The notes beneath the pieces are model-generated. The model saw only the letters and a list, made by a program, of their open reading frames with translations. It did no database searches and was not told the DNA's origin. A DNA stretch of 38,345 nucleotides from an uncultured Alphaproteobacteria bacterium (lineage in GTDB: Bacteria; Pseudomonadota; Alphaproteobacteria; HIMB59; GCA-002718135), in assembly GCA_902602135.1 (NCBI GenBank), contig CACKQA010000003.1, forward strand, positions 1 to 38,345, written 5' to 3'. This document shows positions 17,633-25,086 of the stretch, in pieces (the first letter of the stretch is position 1; the number at the start of each line of letters is the position of its first letter). The position numbers and the translations under genes were made by a program.

Positions 17633-18337
17633 GTGATTAAATTTTTTTACTATTTTTTGCCATTTATTGTAATGTTTCTACCAAGTTTATGGGTAAATTA
17701 TATTTTAAAAAAATATAATAAAATTTTACCTGATATGCCTTTCACTGGTAGAGAACTTGGAAAAAAAATACTTGAAGAAGAAAAAATTACCAATGTATCA
17801 ATTAATCCTATTCAGCAATTAGATCATTACAATCCTAAAGAAAAAAAAATACATATCGCTACAGATAAACTTGATAAAAAAAGTATTACAAGCATTGCGG
17901 TTGTTGCACACGAAATTGGTCATGCAATTCAAGATAAAGAAAAATACAAACCACTTATTCTTAGGCAATCATTAATTGAAAAAACAATGATCTTTCAAAG
18001 AATTGGCTCGTTTTTATTAATTATAGGAATACCATCAATATTTGCCTTCACTAAAAGTCCATTTATCACCCTTATTGCTGCGATAATAATAATGGGATGT
18101 TTGTCTACAAATGTGCTAATCCATTTGATTACTCTTCCTGTAGAATTTGATGCAAGTTTTAAGAGAGCGTTACCAATACTCAAAAGATTTGTTCCTAGAG
18201 AGAATATGTACCAATGCAAATCTGTTTTAAGAGCTGCTGCATTGACATATTTAGCTCAATCCATTGTAAGTATATTTAGATTAAAAATAATACTGTTATC
18301 TTTTATCAATATTTTTAAGTCAATTATAAGAAGATAA
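17633..18337 (+). CDS. Zinc metallopeptidase, YugP-like
   Basis: VVAHEIGHAIQ motif, flanking TM helices, LPVEFDAS conserved segment; GTG start. Confidence 0.87.
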   Translation: MIKFFYYFLPFIVMFLPSLWVNYILKKYNKILPDMPFTGRELGKKILEEEKITNVSINPIQQLDHYNPKEKKIHIATDKLDKKSITSIAVVAHEIGHAIQDKEKYKPLILRQSLIEKTMIFQRIGSFLLIIGIPSIFAFTKSPFITLIAAIIIMGCLSTNVLIHLITLPVEFDASFKRALPILKRFVPRENMYQCKSVLRAAALTYLAQSIVSIFRLKIILLSFINIFKSIIRR

Positions 18338-18385: not shown

Positions 18386-20998
18386 ATGAATTTAAGTGAA
18401 AAAATATCTTTAATACTTGTAGATAAAGGTTTTTCTTTGTCTCCAAAAAAAAATACTGAAGATTTAATCAATTCTAGCACAGAATTTCACAAAAGTAATG
18501 AAGACATCAAAATTGCAGAACAGCATGGTATTGCAGATCAAATTTTTATTCTTTTAAAAGGTGAAGCTGAATATGTAAAATATCATAATAATGTTTTTTA
18601 TAAGTTAGCAACATTAAAGAATGCAGGGTCACCTCTTGGTATTTCAGGCTTAAATGCGCCAGGTAGATATATGTCAGATATATTTATTAAAGGTAATTCA
18701 GAATATATTTCTATCAAAATAGAAAAGTTAAAAGAATTGGAAGAAGTAGATCCGGACTATGCAAGTTTTTTTTATTCTTTTTTATTATTTGAATCAATTA
18801 ATTTAATATGGTCATCTCGCAATTTAGAAAAACCTATTGAACACAAAAACATTAATTTAGCAGATGGTGTTAAAACTGGTGGAGATATTGTAAATACCAA
18901 AAGAATTAAAAATTCAGCATTTTTAGCTTTTCTTGATGATAACGATTTAGATGAATTAATACATTACGCAAACGTTAGATTATTTTCATCTGGTGAATTT
19001 ATAACATTAGAAGGTAAAAATTCTGATGGAATAAATATTTTGTTAAAAGGTAAGGTTGAAGCCTCTTTTACAAATTTAAAAGATGACCAATTAGAAAACA
19101 ATTCAAGATCAATAGCTAGACCAGGAGTAGCATTATCCTTATCTTCAGGATTACATGAAATTGAATCACCCTACTCCTTAAAAGCAACAAGAGATACAAC
19201 GATATTAAAATTCTCAAATGAATTTATTGATAATTTAATCAAAACTAATCCAGAATTGGCAATCAAATTTTTTAAAAGACAATTATGGCAATTAGGACGC
19301 TATATTCAAAGTTCAACAGGCTTAACAACCTATCCAGCTAAAAATGAAAAAGAGTTTTTTCAATATTTATTAAATGATAATTCTGCAACAATACCAAGTA
19401 ATTCCAAACTTTATACAATACCTCATTTATTAGAAAATCATTTAACTCATTCGTTAGCATTCGATACAATTTATGATTTAATTATCGCAGGTAATGATGA
19501 TGAAAAATCTATAGCTAGTTTAATGATTGATGCATTGAGTGGTATAGAAAGAAAAAATAGATTTTTCAAACAACTAAACAAAATATACAACAGAGTAGCA
19601 AATTCATATGATTCAATAAATAAACAAGCATTACAAAAATTAACAAATTCAGATTTTATAAAAGCTTTTGATCAAGTACCTTATGTTATTAAAGGAATGG
19701 AGAATTTACCTGATGAAGCCACAAACATATTTTTTTATAATCATTTGGCAAGCATTGAAGAAAATGGTTTAGCTAATGGACATCAATTTAGTATAGATAG
19801 TCACTTTATAAGTGCAAAAATTTTATTTCCAAAATATGGTGATGGTGGTCAAAGAATTGCTCGATATTCTAGAAATACAGAATTCTGGAGATATAATTAT
19901 TATGAGAATTTAGATTATATTTTCGTCCATACACCAGAATCAGATTATTTAAATGAAACTCAAGAACAAAAAAAGAAAAGAAAAAATAAATTATTTATCG
20001 AAACTCAAAATATTTTTGACCAAAACAGACCTTTAGTTATAGCACCAGAAGGTACATCTGAAACTGAAAATAATTTAACTCCAAATTCCCCAGGCCCATT
20101 AAAACCAGGTGCATTTTTATTAGCAAATCAATTAAAACCAGAGCCCCTTCTTGTTCCAATTGCATTAGCAAATTTTGATTATTCAATTTCTGATACTATT
20201 TATTCAGCAGTTATTAAAGAACCAATAAAAATAAAAGATTTTGTAAATGATATGAAAAATAAAAAAGAGTTAGAAAATTTTTTATCTAAATATAGAAAAA
20301 CTTTTAGAACATATGTTGAGGAAGCAATTGAATTAGCAAAATCTGCTTCAAAAAATAAAATTAATTATGAAGATGTGGTTAGTAACTTAAATTTAGTAAG
20401 CCCTATTGAAGAAGAATTTGAAGCAGACGTGAGAGAATTAGAAATTAAATTACATTCAGATCAATATAAAAATAACAAAATAGTCTTATTTGGAAGTTCA
20501 ACATTTAGAGATTGGGAAAATGCAAAAACTGATTTGTCATTTAATAGTTTATTAAATTTAGGATTTGGTGGTTCCACATTAGTATCATGCCGAACCTATT
20601 TTAATAGAATAGTAGTCCCAAATAATCCTGACAAGATGATTTTTTATGCAGGTGATAATGATATAGGAAGCGGAATGAGTGCTGAAGATCTAGAAAATGA
20701 ATTTTTATTATTTGCTTCTGAAGTTAATGAAAAATTACCTCATACCTTATGTTTTTTTGTTTCTATTAAGCCAAGTGTATTTAGGAATAATTATTTAAAT
20801 ACAATATTAGATGCAAATGAACGAATTAAAAACAAAATTGAGAATTTTAGTCAATGGCGCTATATTGATCTTTGCTCTCCTATGCTTGATGCTGGATTTG
20901 AAAAATTTTATTCAGAAGATCCATTACACATGAATGTACTTGGTTACAGTCTCTTAAGTAAATTAATTAGAGATGAAATCTCGAAATTTACAATTTAA
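18386..20998 (+). CDS. Multidomain protein: two cNMP-binding (Crp-like) domains + PlsC-like acyltransferase + SGNH hydrolase
   Basis: ILLKGEAEYV and ILLKGKVEAS beta-barrel segments; NHLAS... and APEGTSE acyltransferase-like motifs; C-terminus GSSTFRDW, NLGFGGST, YAGDNDI, DPLHMN covering SGNH blocks I, II, III, V. Confidence 0.75.
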   Translation: MNLSEKISLILVDKGFSLSPKKNTEDLINSSTEFHKSNEDIKIAEQHGIADQIFILLKGEAEYVKYHNNVFYKLATLKNAGSPLGISGLNAPGRYMSDIFIKGNSEYISIKIEKLKELEEVDPDYASFFYSFLLFESINLIWSSRNLEKPIEHKNINLADGVKTGGDIVNTKRIKNSAFLAFLDDNDLDELIHYANVRLFSSGEFITLEGKNSDGINILLKGKVEASFTNLKDDQLENNSRSIARPGVALSLSSGLHEIESPYSLKATRDTTILKFSNEFIDNLIKTNPELAIKFFKRQLWQLGRYIQSSTGLTTYPAKNEKEFFQYLLNDNSATIPSNSKLYTIPHLLENHLTHSLAFDTIYDLIIAGNDDEKSIASLMIDALSGIERKNRFFKQLNKIYNRVANSYDSINKQALQKLTNSDFIKAFDQVPYVIKGMENLPDEATNIFFYNHLASIEENGLANGHQFSIDSHFISAKILFPKYGDGGQRIARYSRNTEFWRYNYYENLDYIFVHTPESDYLNETQEQKKKRKNKLFIETQNIFDQNRPLVIAPEGTSETENNLTPNSPGPLKPGAFLLANQLKPEPLLVPIALANFDYSISDTIYSAVIKEPIKIKDFVNDMKNKKELENFLSKYRKTFRTYVEEAIELAKSASKNKINYEDVVSNLNLVSPIEEEFEADVRELEIKLHSDQYKNNKIVLFGSSTFRDWENAKTDLSFNSLLNLGFGGSTLVSCRTYFNRIVVPNNPDKMIFYAGDNDIGSGMSAEDLENEFLLFASEVNEKLPHTLCFFVSIKPSVFRNNYLNTILDANERIKNKIENFSQWRYIDLCSPMLDAGFEKFYSEDPLHMNVLGYSLLSKLIRDEISKFTI

Positions 20999-21012: not shown

Positions 21013-22035
21013 TTAAATTTTAATTTCTTTTCTTAGTTTATCTGATTTATATGAATTGAAGACTAATGATAAACTCTTTATGTTATCTTCACCACTGGTG
21101 TCGTGTTCAATATTATTTATTAGTGAATCAATGAAATGTTTGTGCGTATTGATTACACTTTCTTGAATTTGATCCCAAGGTTTTGAAATCCATTTATATT
21201 TCTTTGGTTTTCCATCATAAATCTTCTTCTTATTATTTTTGTGAAGAGTAATTTTGTAATTATAGTCCAAATCAATTGAGCCGTTAGAGAATTCTAAATT
21301 AACTAGTGTTTGAGCAAATCTGTCTGGTTTTTTTATTGAAGAAATAGATGCATCAACAATAGTAATGCTGTTATTTTTATTTTTTATCAGGGATATAAAA
21401 TCGGTTTCACCTTTAAATTTATTATTTGTATTTTGATTTACTGTATAAATACTTTTTGCTTCTCCCATAAAAAATCTACTTAAATCAAATAAATGGATTC
21501 CTACATCTAGGGTTAAATACTCTTTTAAATCGTATAAATATGTTTGATTGGTATATCCAACAGGATTTGCATGTCTAAAAGATATCTTGGCATAATGTGG
21601 TTTCGTTAACTGCTCTTTATTTATAATTTCTTTTAATTTTAATAGAGGGCTTTGCCATCTAAAATTCTCATGAACCATAAGTGGGGTTTTGTTTTTTTTA
21701 TATAAAGAAACAATTTTTTTTGCATTTGATAAATTTTCAGCAAATGGCTTTTGTATAGAAGTTGGAATTTTATACTTAGATAAAATTTTTCCAATATTTA
21801 AGTGTGTCTCCATTGTTGTGACAACATCAACAAAGTCAATTTTATGTTTTTTTAACATTTCTTCTATAGATGAATAAGAATGCAAAATGTTAAATTTAGA
21901 TTTAAATTTATTAGCTTTTTTTATATCTAAATCACAAACACATATTATTTCAATATTTCTTAATTCTTTCCAAGCTAAAATATGATTTTCAGCAAAGAAA
22001 CCACAACCAATTAATGCTCCTTTTAATTTTTTCAT
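21013..22035 (-). CDS. Gfo/Idh/MocA family oxidoreductase, possibly D-apiose dehydrogenase-like
   Basis: KGALIGCGFFAENHILAWKELRN, SIQKPFA, LMVHENFRWQSPL, DVGIHLFDL. Confidence 0.85.
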   Translation of the reverse strand: MKKLKGALIGCGFFAENHILAWKELRNIEIICVCDLDIKKANKFKSKFNILHSYSSIEEMLKKHKIDFVDVVTTMETHLNIGKILSKYKIPTSIQKPFAENLSNAKKIVSLYKKNKTPLMVHENFRWQSPLLKLKEIINKEQLTKPHYAKISFRHANPVGYTNQTYLYDLKEYLTLDVGIHLFDLSRFFMGEAKSIYTVNQNTNNKFKGETDFISLIKNKNNSITIVDASISSIKKPDRFAQTLVNLEFSNGSIDLDYNYKITLHKNNKKKIYDGKPKKYKWISKPWDQIQESVINTHKHFIDSLINNIEHDTSGEDNIKSLSLVFNSYKSDKLRKEIKI

Positions 22036-23873
22036 TTATCTTCTATAAATTTTATTTCTAATGGCTCAAACGCATATGGATTTGTATCTTTTTTAAAGTT
22101 AAAAAAAGAAAAATCATTATTAAAAATTTCAGTATAATTTTTTAAATTAAGCTTATATTGATTACTAAAATTTATTTCAGGAATATTAATTTCCTTTTTT
22201 TGTTTTGATGAATTTACAAATAAATAATAATTTTTATCTTTTAGTACAATTTTTAGTCCATACACTTCGTTAACTGGATTAAATTTAAAAATTTCTGAAT
22301 TTGATAATGAAATAAGAAAATTATTTAAATGATACAATGGTCTTTTGGCATTATCTTCATTTAATATTCCGTGATACCCATAAATAGAATTAAAAGTAAA
22401 AAATTTTGATTCTTTATTTATTGATTGAATAAAAATTGCCAGTGTCCAAGTTAGTGAAAATAATTGATCATGCCTTGGATCGCTATCAGCCATTTCTAAT
22501 CTTATTTTCTTTTTATTCCTTACAAGACTTTCACCATACGGATTGAAATGCATACCAATAGAAATTGGACCAATATGAACATCGGTACTATTAGAAAAAT
22601 TTTTTAAAGTTTTAAGAATATGAGGTATAGTTTCAGGTGTATTTAACACACCAAAATCACTAGAATCATGAACAATAGGAGTGAAAGAAAAACTGACCAA
22701 ATCATAAAACATTTTTGGTCTCTTTCTATTTAATTCTGTAAAATTAGTGACCATTCCAGAAACAATTTGACTATTAGAAAATATCTTTTTCGCTATTTTA
22801 TAGTATTCATTTAATTCTGGTACTTTAGGCCATTCACCAGCTGGTTGAAAACTATTCAAATATATTTTAGGACAAATTAAAATTTTATCTAAATTAATAG
22901 TATTTTCAGCTATAAAATTATAAATTTTTGTTAACTCTTCTTCAGGATCATTAGCATGATCAACTAAAGCTACAAGAAACATATTTTTGTCAGATCTTGA
23001 AGTTACATTCTTAAAATCTTCAGTAAAATCAATAAGATAGTAATAAAAATCAAAGTTTTTTATTAAATTATCATCAGGAAGAATTGGAGAATCAATTTTT
23101 ATACCAATTTTAGGGAATTTATAGGAATTAGTATGATCAATTTTTACAATATTCTTAGATGGAAATGATCTTTGCTTTTTATTTTCTACATCTATTTTAA
23201 CAGTTTGAGAGAAATTAAACCCTCTTTTTTCTAAATATGGAAAAGGATCTAGTAAAGAACCGCTATATATTTTGTAAGAAGCATCACCCCAGTTTCTTTG
23301 ATCTTCCATTTCAAATAAAATACCCTCAAAATTAATATTAACCAACAAACTATTGTCTAAAGTATAAGTAAGGTTTTTAAATTTGAAAAATGGTTGGTCA
23401 GGTTTTATATTTTCTGGAAATTTTTTTTTCTCTTTTAAATCGTTCCCTTTTGTTACAATGATGTTTGAGCCAACATGATTTTGTAATGGAATTAATAAAT
23501 TAAAACCTATTCTATTAGTCCAAAAATCAGTTAAAAATTCTCCTTCAGAGGATAGAGTGATAGAATTTTCAGAAAATAATATAGTATTTCTTGTTTTAAG
23601 AATTTCATCTATACCATATTCTAAATCGAATATATATTCTAAAGATGTATCAAAGTTCTCTTCATAATTTATAATTTTAGGATCATAGTTATTCCAATTT
23701 TTGTCTCTTACCAAAAATGATATCATCTTTAAAATTTGAAAATTTTGAAAAGTTATATTTCGAAAAAAAAGATTATCTTTTAATAAGGTAAAATTATTAT
23801 TTGAATTTTTTATAAATTTTTCTTCTAATAATTTAGAGTTATACATATAATTTTGAAACTGATTTATAATCAT
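22032..23873 (-). CDS. D-apionate lactonase (ApnL)-like protein
   Basis: FEMEDQRNWGDASYKIYSGSL and barrel-like sequence resemble the ApnL family from memory. Overlaps the Gfo/Idh/MocA gene by 4 nt. Confidence 0.55.
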   Translation of the reverse strand: MIINQFQNYMYNSKLLEEKFIKNSNNNFTLLKDNLFFRNITFQNFQILKMISFLVRDKNWNNYDPKIINYEENFDTSLEYIFDLEYGIDEILKTRNTILFSENSITLSSEGEFLTDFWTNRIGFNLLIPLQNHVGSNIIVTKGNDLKEKKKFPENIKPDQPFFKFKNLTYTLDNSLLVNINFEGILFEMEDQRNWGDASYKIYSGSLLDPFPYLEKRGFNFSQTVKIDVENKKQRSFPSKNIVKIDHTNSYKFPKIGIKIDSPILPDDNLIKNFDFYYYLIDFTEDFKNVTSRSDKNMFLVALVDHANDPEEELTKIYNFIAENTINLDKILICPKIYLNSFQPAGEWPKVPELNEYYKIAKKIFSNSQIVSGMVTNFTELNRKRPKMFYDLVSFSFTPIVHDSSDFGVLNTPETIPHILKTLKNFSNSTDVHIGPISIGMHFNPYGESLVRNKKKIRLEMADSDPRHDQLFSLTWTLAIFIQSINKESKFFTFNSIYGYHGILNEDNAKRPLYHLNNFLISLSNSEIFKFNPVNEVYGLKIVLKDKNYYLFVNSSKQKKEINIPEINFSNQYKLNLKNYTEIFNNDFSFFNFKKDTNPYAFEPLEIKFIEDK

Positions 23874-25086
23874 TATATTCTGATATTAAATCTGATTTAT
23901 TTTTTTCATATTTTGTATTTTGGATTAAACTTAAAAAAATAAGTTCTCTTTGAGCAAAACTACCTCCAAGGTATTTAAATTGTGATTTAATTATATTTTC
24001 GTTTAATGATTCATTTGTTTTTATACTGTGAATGATTGGCTTTAAGTAATTAATATAATTTTCTTTAAAAGAATTTTCTAAATAATTTTCTTCCATTCTC
24101 TCTTCAAGTTGCTGAATATAATCTTGGTCATTATAGTATAAGTAATAAAAAATAAGATGATAATCAATGAATGGAAGTATGTGTTGATTTTTAAAATATT
24201 CAGCATAATCTTTTAATTTATCCATTCTTTCTTTAACATTCACCCCTTTGTAATGAAGTCTTAATAAAAAAGAACAAGCATTACAAAAATCTAAATAAAA
24301 AATTTCTGAAGAAGAGAAATAATTATCAAATAGTTTTAAACTTTTCTCATATTCTTGATTGTAGAATAATATTAATGATTGGTGCCACCATATATGTCTT
24401 TTTATTGGCCCGTAAATTGACCAATTAATTTTATTAAAATTATCATTGTTGTTTATTGAGTCGTTATTTTCATTATCGTGTACATGCAAAAGGGCATGCC
24501 AACTCCACAAATCATTTGATGATTGTTTTAGTGAATTTAAGGCTAAAAGCTTAGCTTTATCAATTATATTATTTTCTTCAAAAGCATAGCTAGTCATCCC
24601 TAATAGTAAATTATAATGCTGATCATTTTCAGACCACTTACTTAGTATTTCCTCATGTTTATTTAAAAATTTACTATCAATACCCAAGAAAATATTATTA
24701 AAATGAAATAATCTAATTGCAAAAATATCTTTGGGATTATCTTTTATGATTAATTCCAATTTAATTAATAAATTTTTTAAATCATTTTTAATCCATAGAT
24801 TTACTATCTCTAAATATTGATGAAAATAATCATTTACTTCATCAGTGGAAATTGATTTGAATGTTTCTCTAGCTAATGAAATTTTTTGTACATCTCTAGA
24901 AAAAAGCAATAAAACTATTTTTAATAATTTTGGAGCATTAAATTCTGGTTTTTTTTTAATTAATTTGTTAGTTTTATAAAAAGCATCTTTCTTAAAATAA
25001 ATATATGAATCGATACATTCTTTGAAACTATTTATTTCATCATCTTTATTACTATCTATCCATTTATAAAAATAATTATTTTGCAT
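23839..25086 (-). CDS. TTC38-like tetratricopeptide protein
   Basis: SWHALLHVHDNE...GPIKRHIWWHQSLILFYNQEYEKSLKLFD resembles the H..AHV...H.WWH.AL pattern of TTC38-family proteins. Confidence 0.65.
   Translation of the reverse strand: MQNNYFYKWIDSNKDDEINSFKECIDSYIYFKKDAFYKTNKLIKKKPEFNAPKLLKIVLLLFSRDVQKISLARETFKSISTDEVNDYFHQYLEIVNLWIKNDLKNLLIKLELIIKDNPKDIFAIRLFHFNNIFLGIDSKFLNKHEEILSKWSENDQHYNLLLGMTSYAFEENNIIDKAKLLALNSLKQSSNDLWSWHALLHVHDNENNDSINNNDNFNKINWSIYGPIKRHIWWHQSLILFYNQEYEKSLKLFDNYFSSSEIFYLDFCNACSFLLRLHYKGVNVKERMDKLKDYAEYFKNQHILPFIDYHLIFYYLYYNDQDYIQQLEERMEENYLENSFKENYINYLKPIIHSIKTNESLNENIIKSQFKYLGGSFAQRELIFLSLIQNTKYEKNKSDLISEYNDYKSVSKLYV

Follow-up and report, generated by a model that had tools for sequence, protein, structure and literature searches.

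A fusion of cNMP-fold domains, a PlsC-type acyltransferase and an SGNH hydrolase in marine Alphaproteobacteria: a candidate acyl-editing enzyme

Introduction

What might a protein do that carries an acyl-adding and an acyl-removing module behind a pair of cNMP-fold domains, and would it answer to a cyclic nucleotide? The question is raised by a gene in a 38,345-nucleotide stretch of DNA from an uncultured alphaproteobacterium of the HIMB59 lineage, here called the window, which has a GC content of 26% and comes from a 963-kb genome in 75 contigs that is 59% complete. By the ORF calls, the gene lies on the forward strand, starts with ATG at position 18386, ends with its stop codon at 20998 and encodes 870 residues. 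An earlier note, made from the letters of the window, read the product as a regulated lipid or acyl-chain editing enzyme under a putative nucleotide sensor. Cells with streamlined genomes seldom retain an 870-residue protein of three functions without a use for it, and strong constraint acts on the fusion in bacteria that abound in the ocean. Should the pairing be real, one protein chain would both take acyl groups off and put them back, making up a simple acyl remodelling system.

Architecture of the fusion protein

ORF calls, Pfam and full-length conservation support a single reading frame (18386-20998, +) with the order cNMP1, cNMP2, helical linker, acyltransferase (AT) and SGNH hydrolase. 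The first cNMP-fold domain (residues 1-150; 18386-18835, +) is recognized by structure: in the full-length model, residues 1-142 match the cNMP protein 3mdp with a VIA Z of 14.9, and in relatives a second cNMP_binding stretch appears here. Within the second (residues 165-310; 18878-19315, +), the Pfam cNMP_binding family (PF00027) scores above its cut-off at residues 198-288; the family profile also retrieves tandem cNMP proteins by sequence. The helical linker (residues 311-430; 19316-19675, +) holds five family-conserved positions, S340, L342, T354, G369 and E373. The AT domain, of the PlsC/GPAT type (residues 431-655; 19676-20350, +), and the SGNH domain (residues 670-866; 20393-20983, +) both fall just below their Pfam cut-offs in the window protein, Acyltransferase at residues 507-594 (E = 9e-4; 19.5 versus 23 bits) and Lipase_GDSL_2 at residues 721-855 (E = 2e-7; 31.8 versus 32.9). 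Among relatives all the domains pass, with two cNMP stretches and E-values down to 7.8e-10 for Acyltransferase and 3.4e-15 for GDSL; PF01553, the acyltransferase family, is found in 11 of 11 relatives and above cut-off in several.

The full-length AlphaFold2 model is poor (pLDDT 53) and was used for cNMP1 and SGNH only. Its C-terminal part confirms the SGNH fold, with Z up to 18.7: the closest matches include sialate O-acetylesterase (Z 18.7), PAF acetylhydrolase (Z 16.8) and acetyl xylan esterases. Since acetylesterases and PAF acetylhydrolase are as similar to it as lysophospholipases are, the substrate may be other than a phospholipid. A separate model of the AT domain is of moderate quality (pLDDT 66, pTM 0.72, motif-I loop below 50) and matches plastidial GPAT (8ia1, VIA Z 11.1), 1iuq (Z 10.7) and PlsC of Thermotoga (5kym, Z 10.5 over 148 residues at 3.2 A), with PatA and LpxM also matching at lower scores; Foldseek finds the AT domain with E = 4e-5. 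Both the LPLAT/GPAT fold and the Pro-Glu-Gly motif III of the PF01553 family are present, the latter at residues 554-556 (20045-20053, +) and invariant in all relatives. The SGNH residues Ser704 (20495), Gly728 (20567), Asn758 (20657), Asp845 (20918) and His848 (20927), all on the forward strand, are invariant in 81 sequences of the window family and in the distant fused relatives.

The layout that the earlier note had proposed, and for which it suggested domain parsing, is borne out by Pfam, structure comparison and conservation, all three kinds of fold being recovered. Each motif that it quoted is where it should be: NHLASIEE at residues 452-459, APEGTSE at 553-559, GSSTF at 703-707, GFGGS at 726-730, GDND at 756-759 and DPLH at 845-848. 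The note knew of no characterized protein of this kind, and none was found here within the limited literature and database coverage: no paper combined the terms of the architecture, and two papers on HIMB59 are silent on cyclic nucleotides, acyltransferases and GDSL. As far as found, the layout is uncharacterized, yet every part comes from a known superfamily.

Distribution, constraint and gene context

At least 115 homologues were found in genome_contigs; the best 80 of these span 99 to 55% identity and are nearly all full length. Among marine alphaproteobacteria, 81 distinct sequences of full length keep the layout, and within the order the fusion is carried by 57 of 162 genomes, all from one genus. 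The same architecture, with two cNMP stretches, Acyltransferase and GDSL, does occur in other taxa, where the earlier note had advised looking: full-length relatives at about 28-30% identity come from an alphaproteobacterial family (f118) and from a family (f216) in the same phylum but a different class. Viral contigs searched for relatives held none. A chimera or assembly error was considered and ruled out, the same ORF being present in many single-cell genomes with synteny kept.

The gene is under purifying selection, with whole-gene dN/dS of 0.06-0.18 in six comparisons and single-domain values of 0.03-0.30, the top of this range coming from the cNMP domains in the comparison with L040. AT is the most conserved module in comparisons with the SAR11-type and f216 relatives (L037, L040, L050, L151, L152), e.g., 71% identity against 39% for cNMP1 in L050; AT and SGNH are conserved equally (36-38%) in the comparison with f118. 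At the L040 locus, identity to the window is 94-96% for both genes upstream of the fusion but only 70% for the fusion gene itself, a pattern suggestive of an allelic replacement whose breakpoint lies close to the start of the gene.

A gene of the Zn_peptidase_2 family lies 48 bp upstream of the fusion (17633-18337, +); this linkage is confined to the present marine lineage, and no such gene was found near the fusion gene in the Pelagibacteraceae locus L062. Downstream, the opposite strand (21013-23873, -) encodes a Gfo/Idh/MocA oxidoreductase and a D-apionate-lactonase-like protein (NF049900, E = 7e-95, below its cut-off). These genes, together with 23839-25086, also come after the fusion in loci L030 and L031; the five loci examined with the ~72% allele of the fusion gave no matches to them. 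Esterases apart, the loci compared revealed no operon partner conserved across lineages.

The cNMP-fold pair

The reading of the N-terminal pair as a cyclic-nucleotide sensor found no support. In cNMP1, the canonical pocket Glu is replaced by Ile86 (18641-18643) in the window and by Ile or Val in 81 of 81 window-family sequences, all of which retain Arg94 (18665-18667); in cNMP2, the pocket Glu and the phosphate Arg are both absent. The phosphate-binding cassette is not kept, with Glu in neither domain and Arg in the first only. Similarly, the first domain of L151 aligns G-W-S-A to the G-E-L-A of PKA-R.

The distribution of cyclases points the same way. Of the 98 genomes examined in the genus, 50 have a class III cyclase (PF00211). 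Among carriers of the fusion, it is present in 38 of the 47 with the ~95% allele, in none of the 8 with the ~72% allele and in none of the 25 Pelagibacteraceae; class I cyclase (PF01295) was likewise not found in the last two groups, 33 carriers together, all counts coming from incomplete genomes in which absence is no proof for any single one. GGDEF was found in none of those 98 genomes. Within the genus, the fusion and the class III cyclase tend to be present together (Fisher p = 9e-5); a functional link was rejected because this correlation follows sub-clades and is absent elsewhere. The genus cyclase gene lies tail-to-tail with a gene for an MscS-type channel that bears a canonical cNMP cassette, GEGSLLTGEPRSA (GE...R kept). 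Since the pocket residues are lost, some carriers appear cyclase-free and the cyclase sits beside another protein with a canonical cNMP domain, the fusion is not the obvious cAMP effector, and sensing of cAMP or cGMP by it is not supported.

The channel and the cyclase form an arrangement of their own (L168:241-3207) that roughly every second genome of the genus has; they are likely a cyclic-nucleotide-gated channel pair.

The acyltransferase active site

Motif I had been described as looking like HX4E and not the canonical HX4D, so that substrate or activity might be atypical. The literal HX4E is there, with Glu458 (19757-19759, +) five residues beyond His453, but its acid is not family-conserved: it alternates between E (48) and D (33) among 81 close relatives, and more distant ones have A, P, M or T. 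The second part of the claim is not supported, because HX4D/E is the accepted acyltransferase motif (PMC6148475), because the ordinary PlsC of the same genus is itself HX4E, and because the conserved acid is another one, Asp471. At +18, Asp471 is the only acid at constant spacing from the motif-I His in every lineage that keeps this His, and His453, Asp471 and Glu499 are invariant in all lineages with an intact AT domain. The literal pair with Glu458 is probably not the catalytic one. That role may instead belong to His453 (19742-19744) and Asp471 (19796-19798), a divergent motif I of the form HX17D with a 13-residue insertion (19742-19798, +), an assignment that we consider somewhat better than an even bet. 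An hhalign alignment obtained at a permissive setting only places a 13-residue gap after NH, pairs QFSIDS with QSTFET in the ordinary PlsC of the genus and matches Asp471 to the Glu of that protein. With a pLDDT below 50 in its motif-I loop, the AT model does not show how His453 and Asp471 are placed relative to each other. Departures from the textbook spacing have been described, e.g., HX5D in SalA (PMC8319176), and LpxJ and PatA are without HX4D/E (PMC6148475). As a separate observation, PlsC-type proteins of this genus and of another genus of the order (L162-L167) carry HX4E in the form KHQSxFET.

The genus also holds separate PF01553 proteins, so the fusion is unlikely to be the housekeeping PlsC. 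Three f118 proteins have Ser for His453 and Cys for Asp471, have lost Glu499 and lack a stretch of about 20 residues, and they keep the SGNH domain. These losses imply that acyl transfer is dispensable in some lineages and that the esterase may be the part every fused lineage needs. Together with the triple loss in f118, the HX17D proposal makes a clear prediction for point mutants.

Esterase partners

The claim that acyl-adding and acyl-removing modules act together, made from their fusion in the window, gains independent evidence from relatives in which the parts are arranged otherwise. SGNH is fused to AT in three lineages. In Persicobacter sp. JZB09 (Bacteroidota), cNMP-cNMP-AT (655 aa) and SGNH (209 aa) are two genes 1 bp apart. 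In the relatives that have no SGNH part (L153, L154, L157, L179 and L180), an AXE1-type esterase gene is near in five of five, adjoining the cNMP-AT gene or the cNMP1 ORF in four and separated by one PhoD-like gene in L153; a sixth such relative, L181, ends at a contig edge and was left out of this count. AXE1 is a family named for acetyl xylan esterases. The five AXE1 esterases are 43-53% identical to one another, and tblastn found no AXE1 at the SGNH-containing loci (the window, L037, L040, L050, L062, L151, L152, L155, L156 and L174). The five loci come from four families and vary in gene orientation; a single branch of the tree separates the AXE1 group from the fused group, and since the AXE1 loci fall in one clade they are not fully independent of each other. 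Relatives thus keep both enzyme parts as neighbouring genes, so that the parts probably work together, and we take this as strong evidence that this type of acyltransferase works with an esterase. The swap of SGNH for AXE1 offers a comparative route to the substrate.

Two of these loci show interrupted frames: an in-frame TGA in L157 and an in-frame TAG in L180 split the cNMP1 part from the rest, which may reflect gene splitting, decay or sequencing error. Stand-alone SGNH proteins, kin to the C-terminal module, occur in many other Alphaproteobacteria (L116-L126); those read carry a SIKPS/SLKPS-type segment, and several have a hydrophobic N-terminus.

A model of acyl editing and its alternatives

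We read the fusion, with a probability of roughly one half, as a bifunctional acyl-editing enzyme that couples deacylation to reacylation and whose regulatory part does not respond to cAMP. The SGNH module would remove an acyl, perhaps short-chain, ester group; AT would then transfer an acyl chain from acyl-ACP or acyl-CoA to the hydroxyl thus exposed on a lysolipid-like acceptor, with His453 and Asp471 as its dyad where textbook enzymes have HX4D. Both modules would act on one lipid-like acceptor, and the cNMP pair may be a structural or allosteric unit (for dimerisation, membrane or effector contact) with no classical cAMP/cGMP response. A broader proposal, more tentative, is that of an undescribed family of regulated acyl-editing enzymes defined by a non-canonical cNMP pair, a PlsC-type AT with a split HX17D site, an obligate ester hydrolase partner (SGNH, whether fused or adjacent, or else an adjacent AXE1) and control by a ligand other than cAMP.

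This reading has rivals. AT could be a pseudo-enzyme, or a platform that binds lipid or acyl carrier and presents the substrate to SGNH as the sole catalytic part; the f118 proteins, with a degraded AT beside an intact SGNH, are what one would expect of such a platform, as are the sub-threshold PF01553 score in the window and the unusual motif I. We regard this as unlikely: His453, Asp471 and Pro-Glu-Gly are invariant in all lineages but f118, no other module is as constrained as AT in comparisons with SAR11-type and f216 relatives, and some relatives have AT with no SGNH to serve. Least probable of all is the version in the earlier note, in which the N-terminal pair would be a switch for acyl editing, operated by bound cAMP or cGMP. 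The cNMP fold of both domains, the invariant Arg94 and the cyclase correlation within the genus would fit a switch, but the pocket lacks Glu in both domains and Arg in the second, the 33 carriers surveyed in incomplete genomes showed neither cyclase family, and the genus cyclase neighbours a canonical-cassette channel, its correlation with the fusion tracking sub-clades.

An alternative that we also regard as unlikely concerns the substrate: SGNH would be a carbohydrate- or sialate-type O-deacetylase and AT would acylate the same glycan or glycolipid, in an exchange of acyl groups on envelope sugars and not on phospholipid. Sialate O-acetylesterase and acetyl xylan esterases as the best SGNH matches, AXE1 as the alternative partner, and the glycolipid acyltransferases PatA and LpxM among the AT matches all lean this way. 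Yet GPAT and PlsC are clearly closer to AT than PatA or LpxM, a substrate cannot be read from the name of a Pfam family or a fold, and no glycan gene was found consistently near the fusion in the loci examined.

Comparison with known systems

An acyl-editing fusion of this kind would share its parts with several known systems. With Crp/Fnr-type and tandem cNMP domains (PF00027) it has in common the fold and the tandem arrangement, as in PKA-R and PKG, and differs in that its phosphate-binding cassette is not conserved. The neuropathy target esterase PNPLA6/SWS also places cNMP-type domains ahead of a lipid hydrolase (PMC9025805); the likeness is one of plan only, PNPLA6/SWS having a patatin hydrolase instead of SGNH, no acyltransferase and three cNMP sites, and Pfam gave no patatin match in the window protein up to E = 1. 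Sialate O-acetylesterase and PAF acetylhydrolase Ib resemble the SGNH module in fold (Z 18.7 and 16.8) and in the Ser, Gly, Asn and Asp-His blocks; unlike in those hydrolases, the module here forms the C-terminus of a larger protein, apparently a cytosolic one, and has a conserved SIKPS segment in common with a stand-alone subfamily. Finally, the AT domain is like the PlsC/GPAT-type acyltransferases (PF01553) in fold (Z 10.5-11.1), motif-I His and motif-III Pro-Glu-Gly, and the fusion protein is set apart from them by the proposed 13-residue motif-I insertion (HX17D) and by the cNMP-fold and SGNH domains fused to it.
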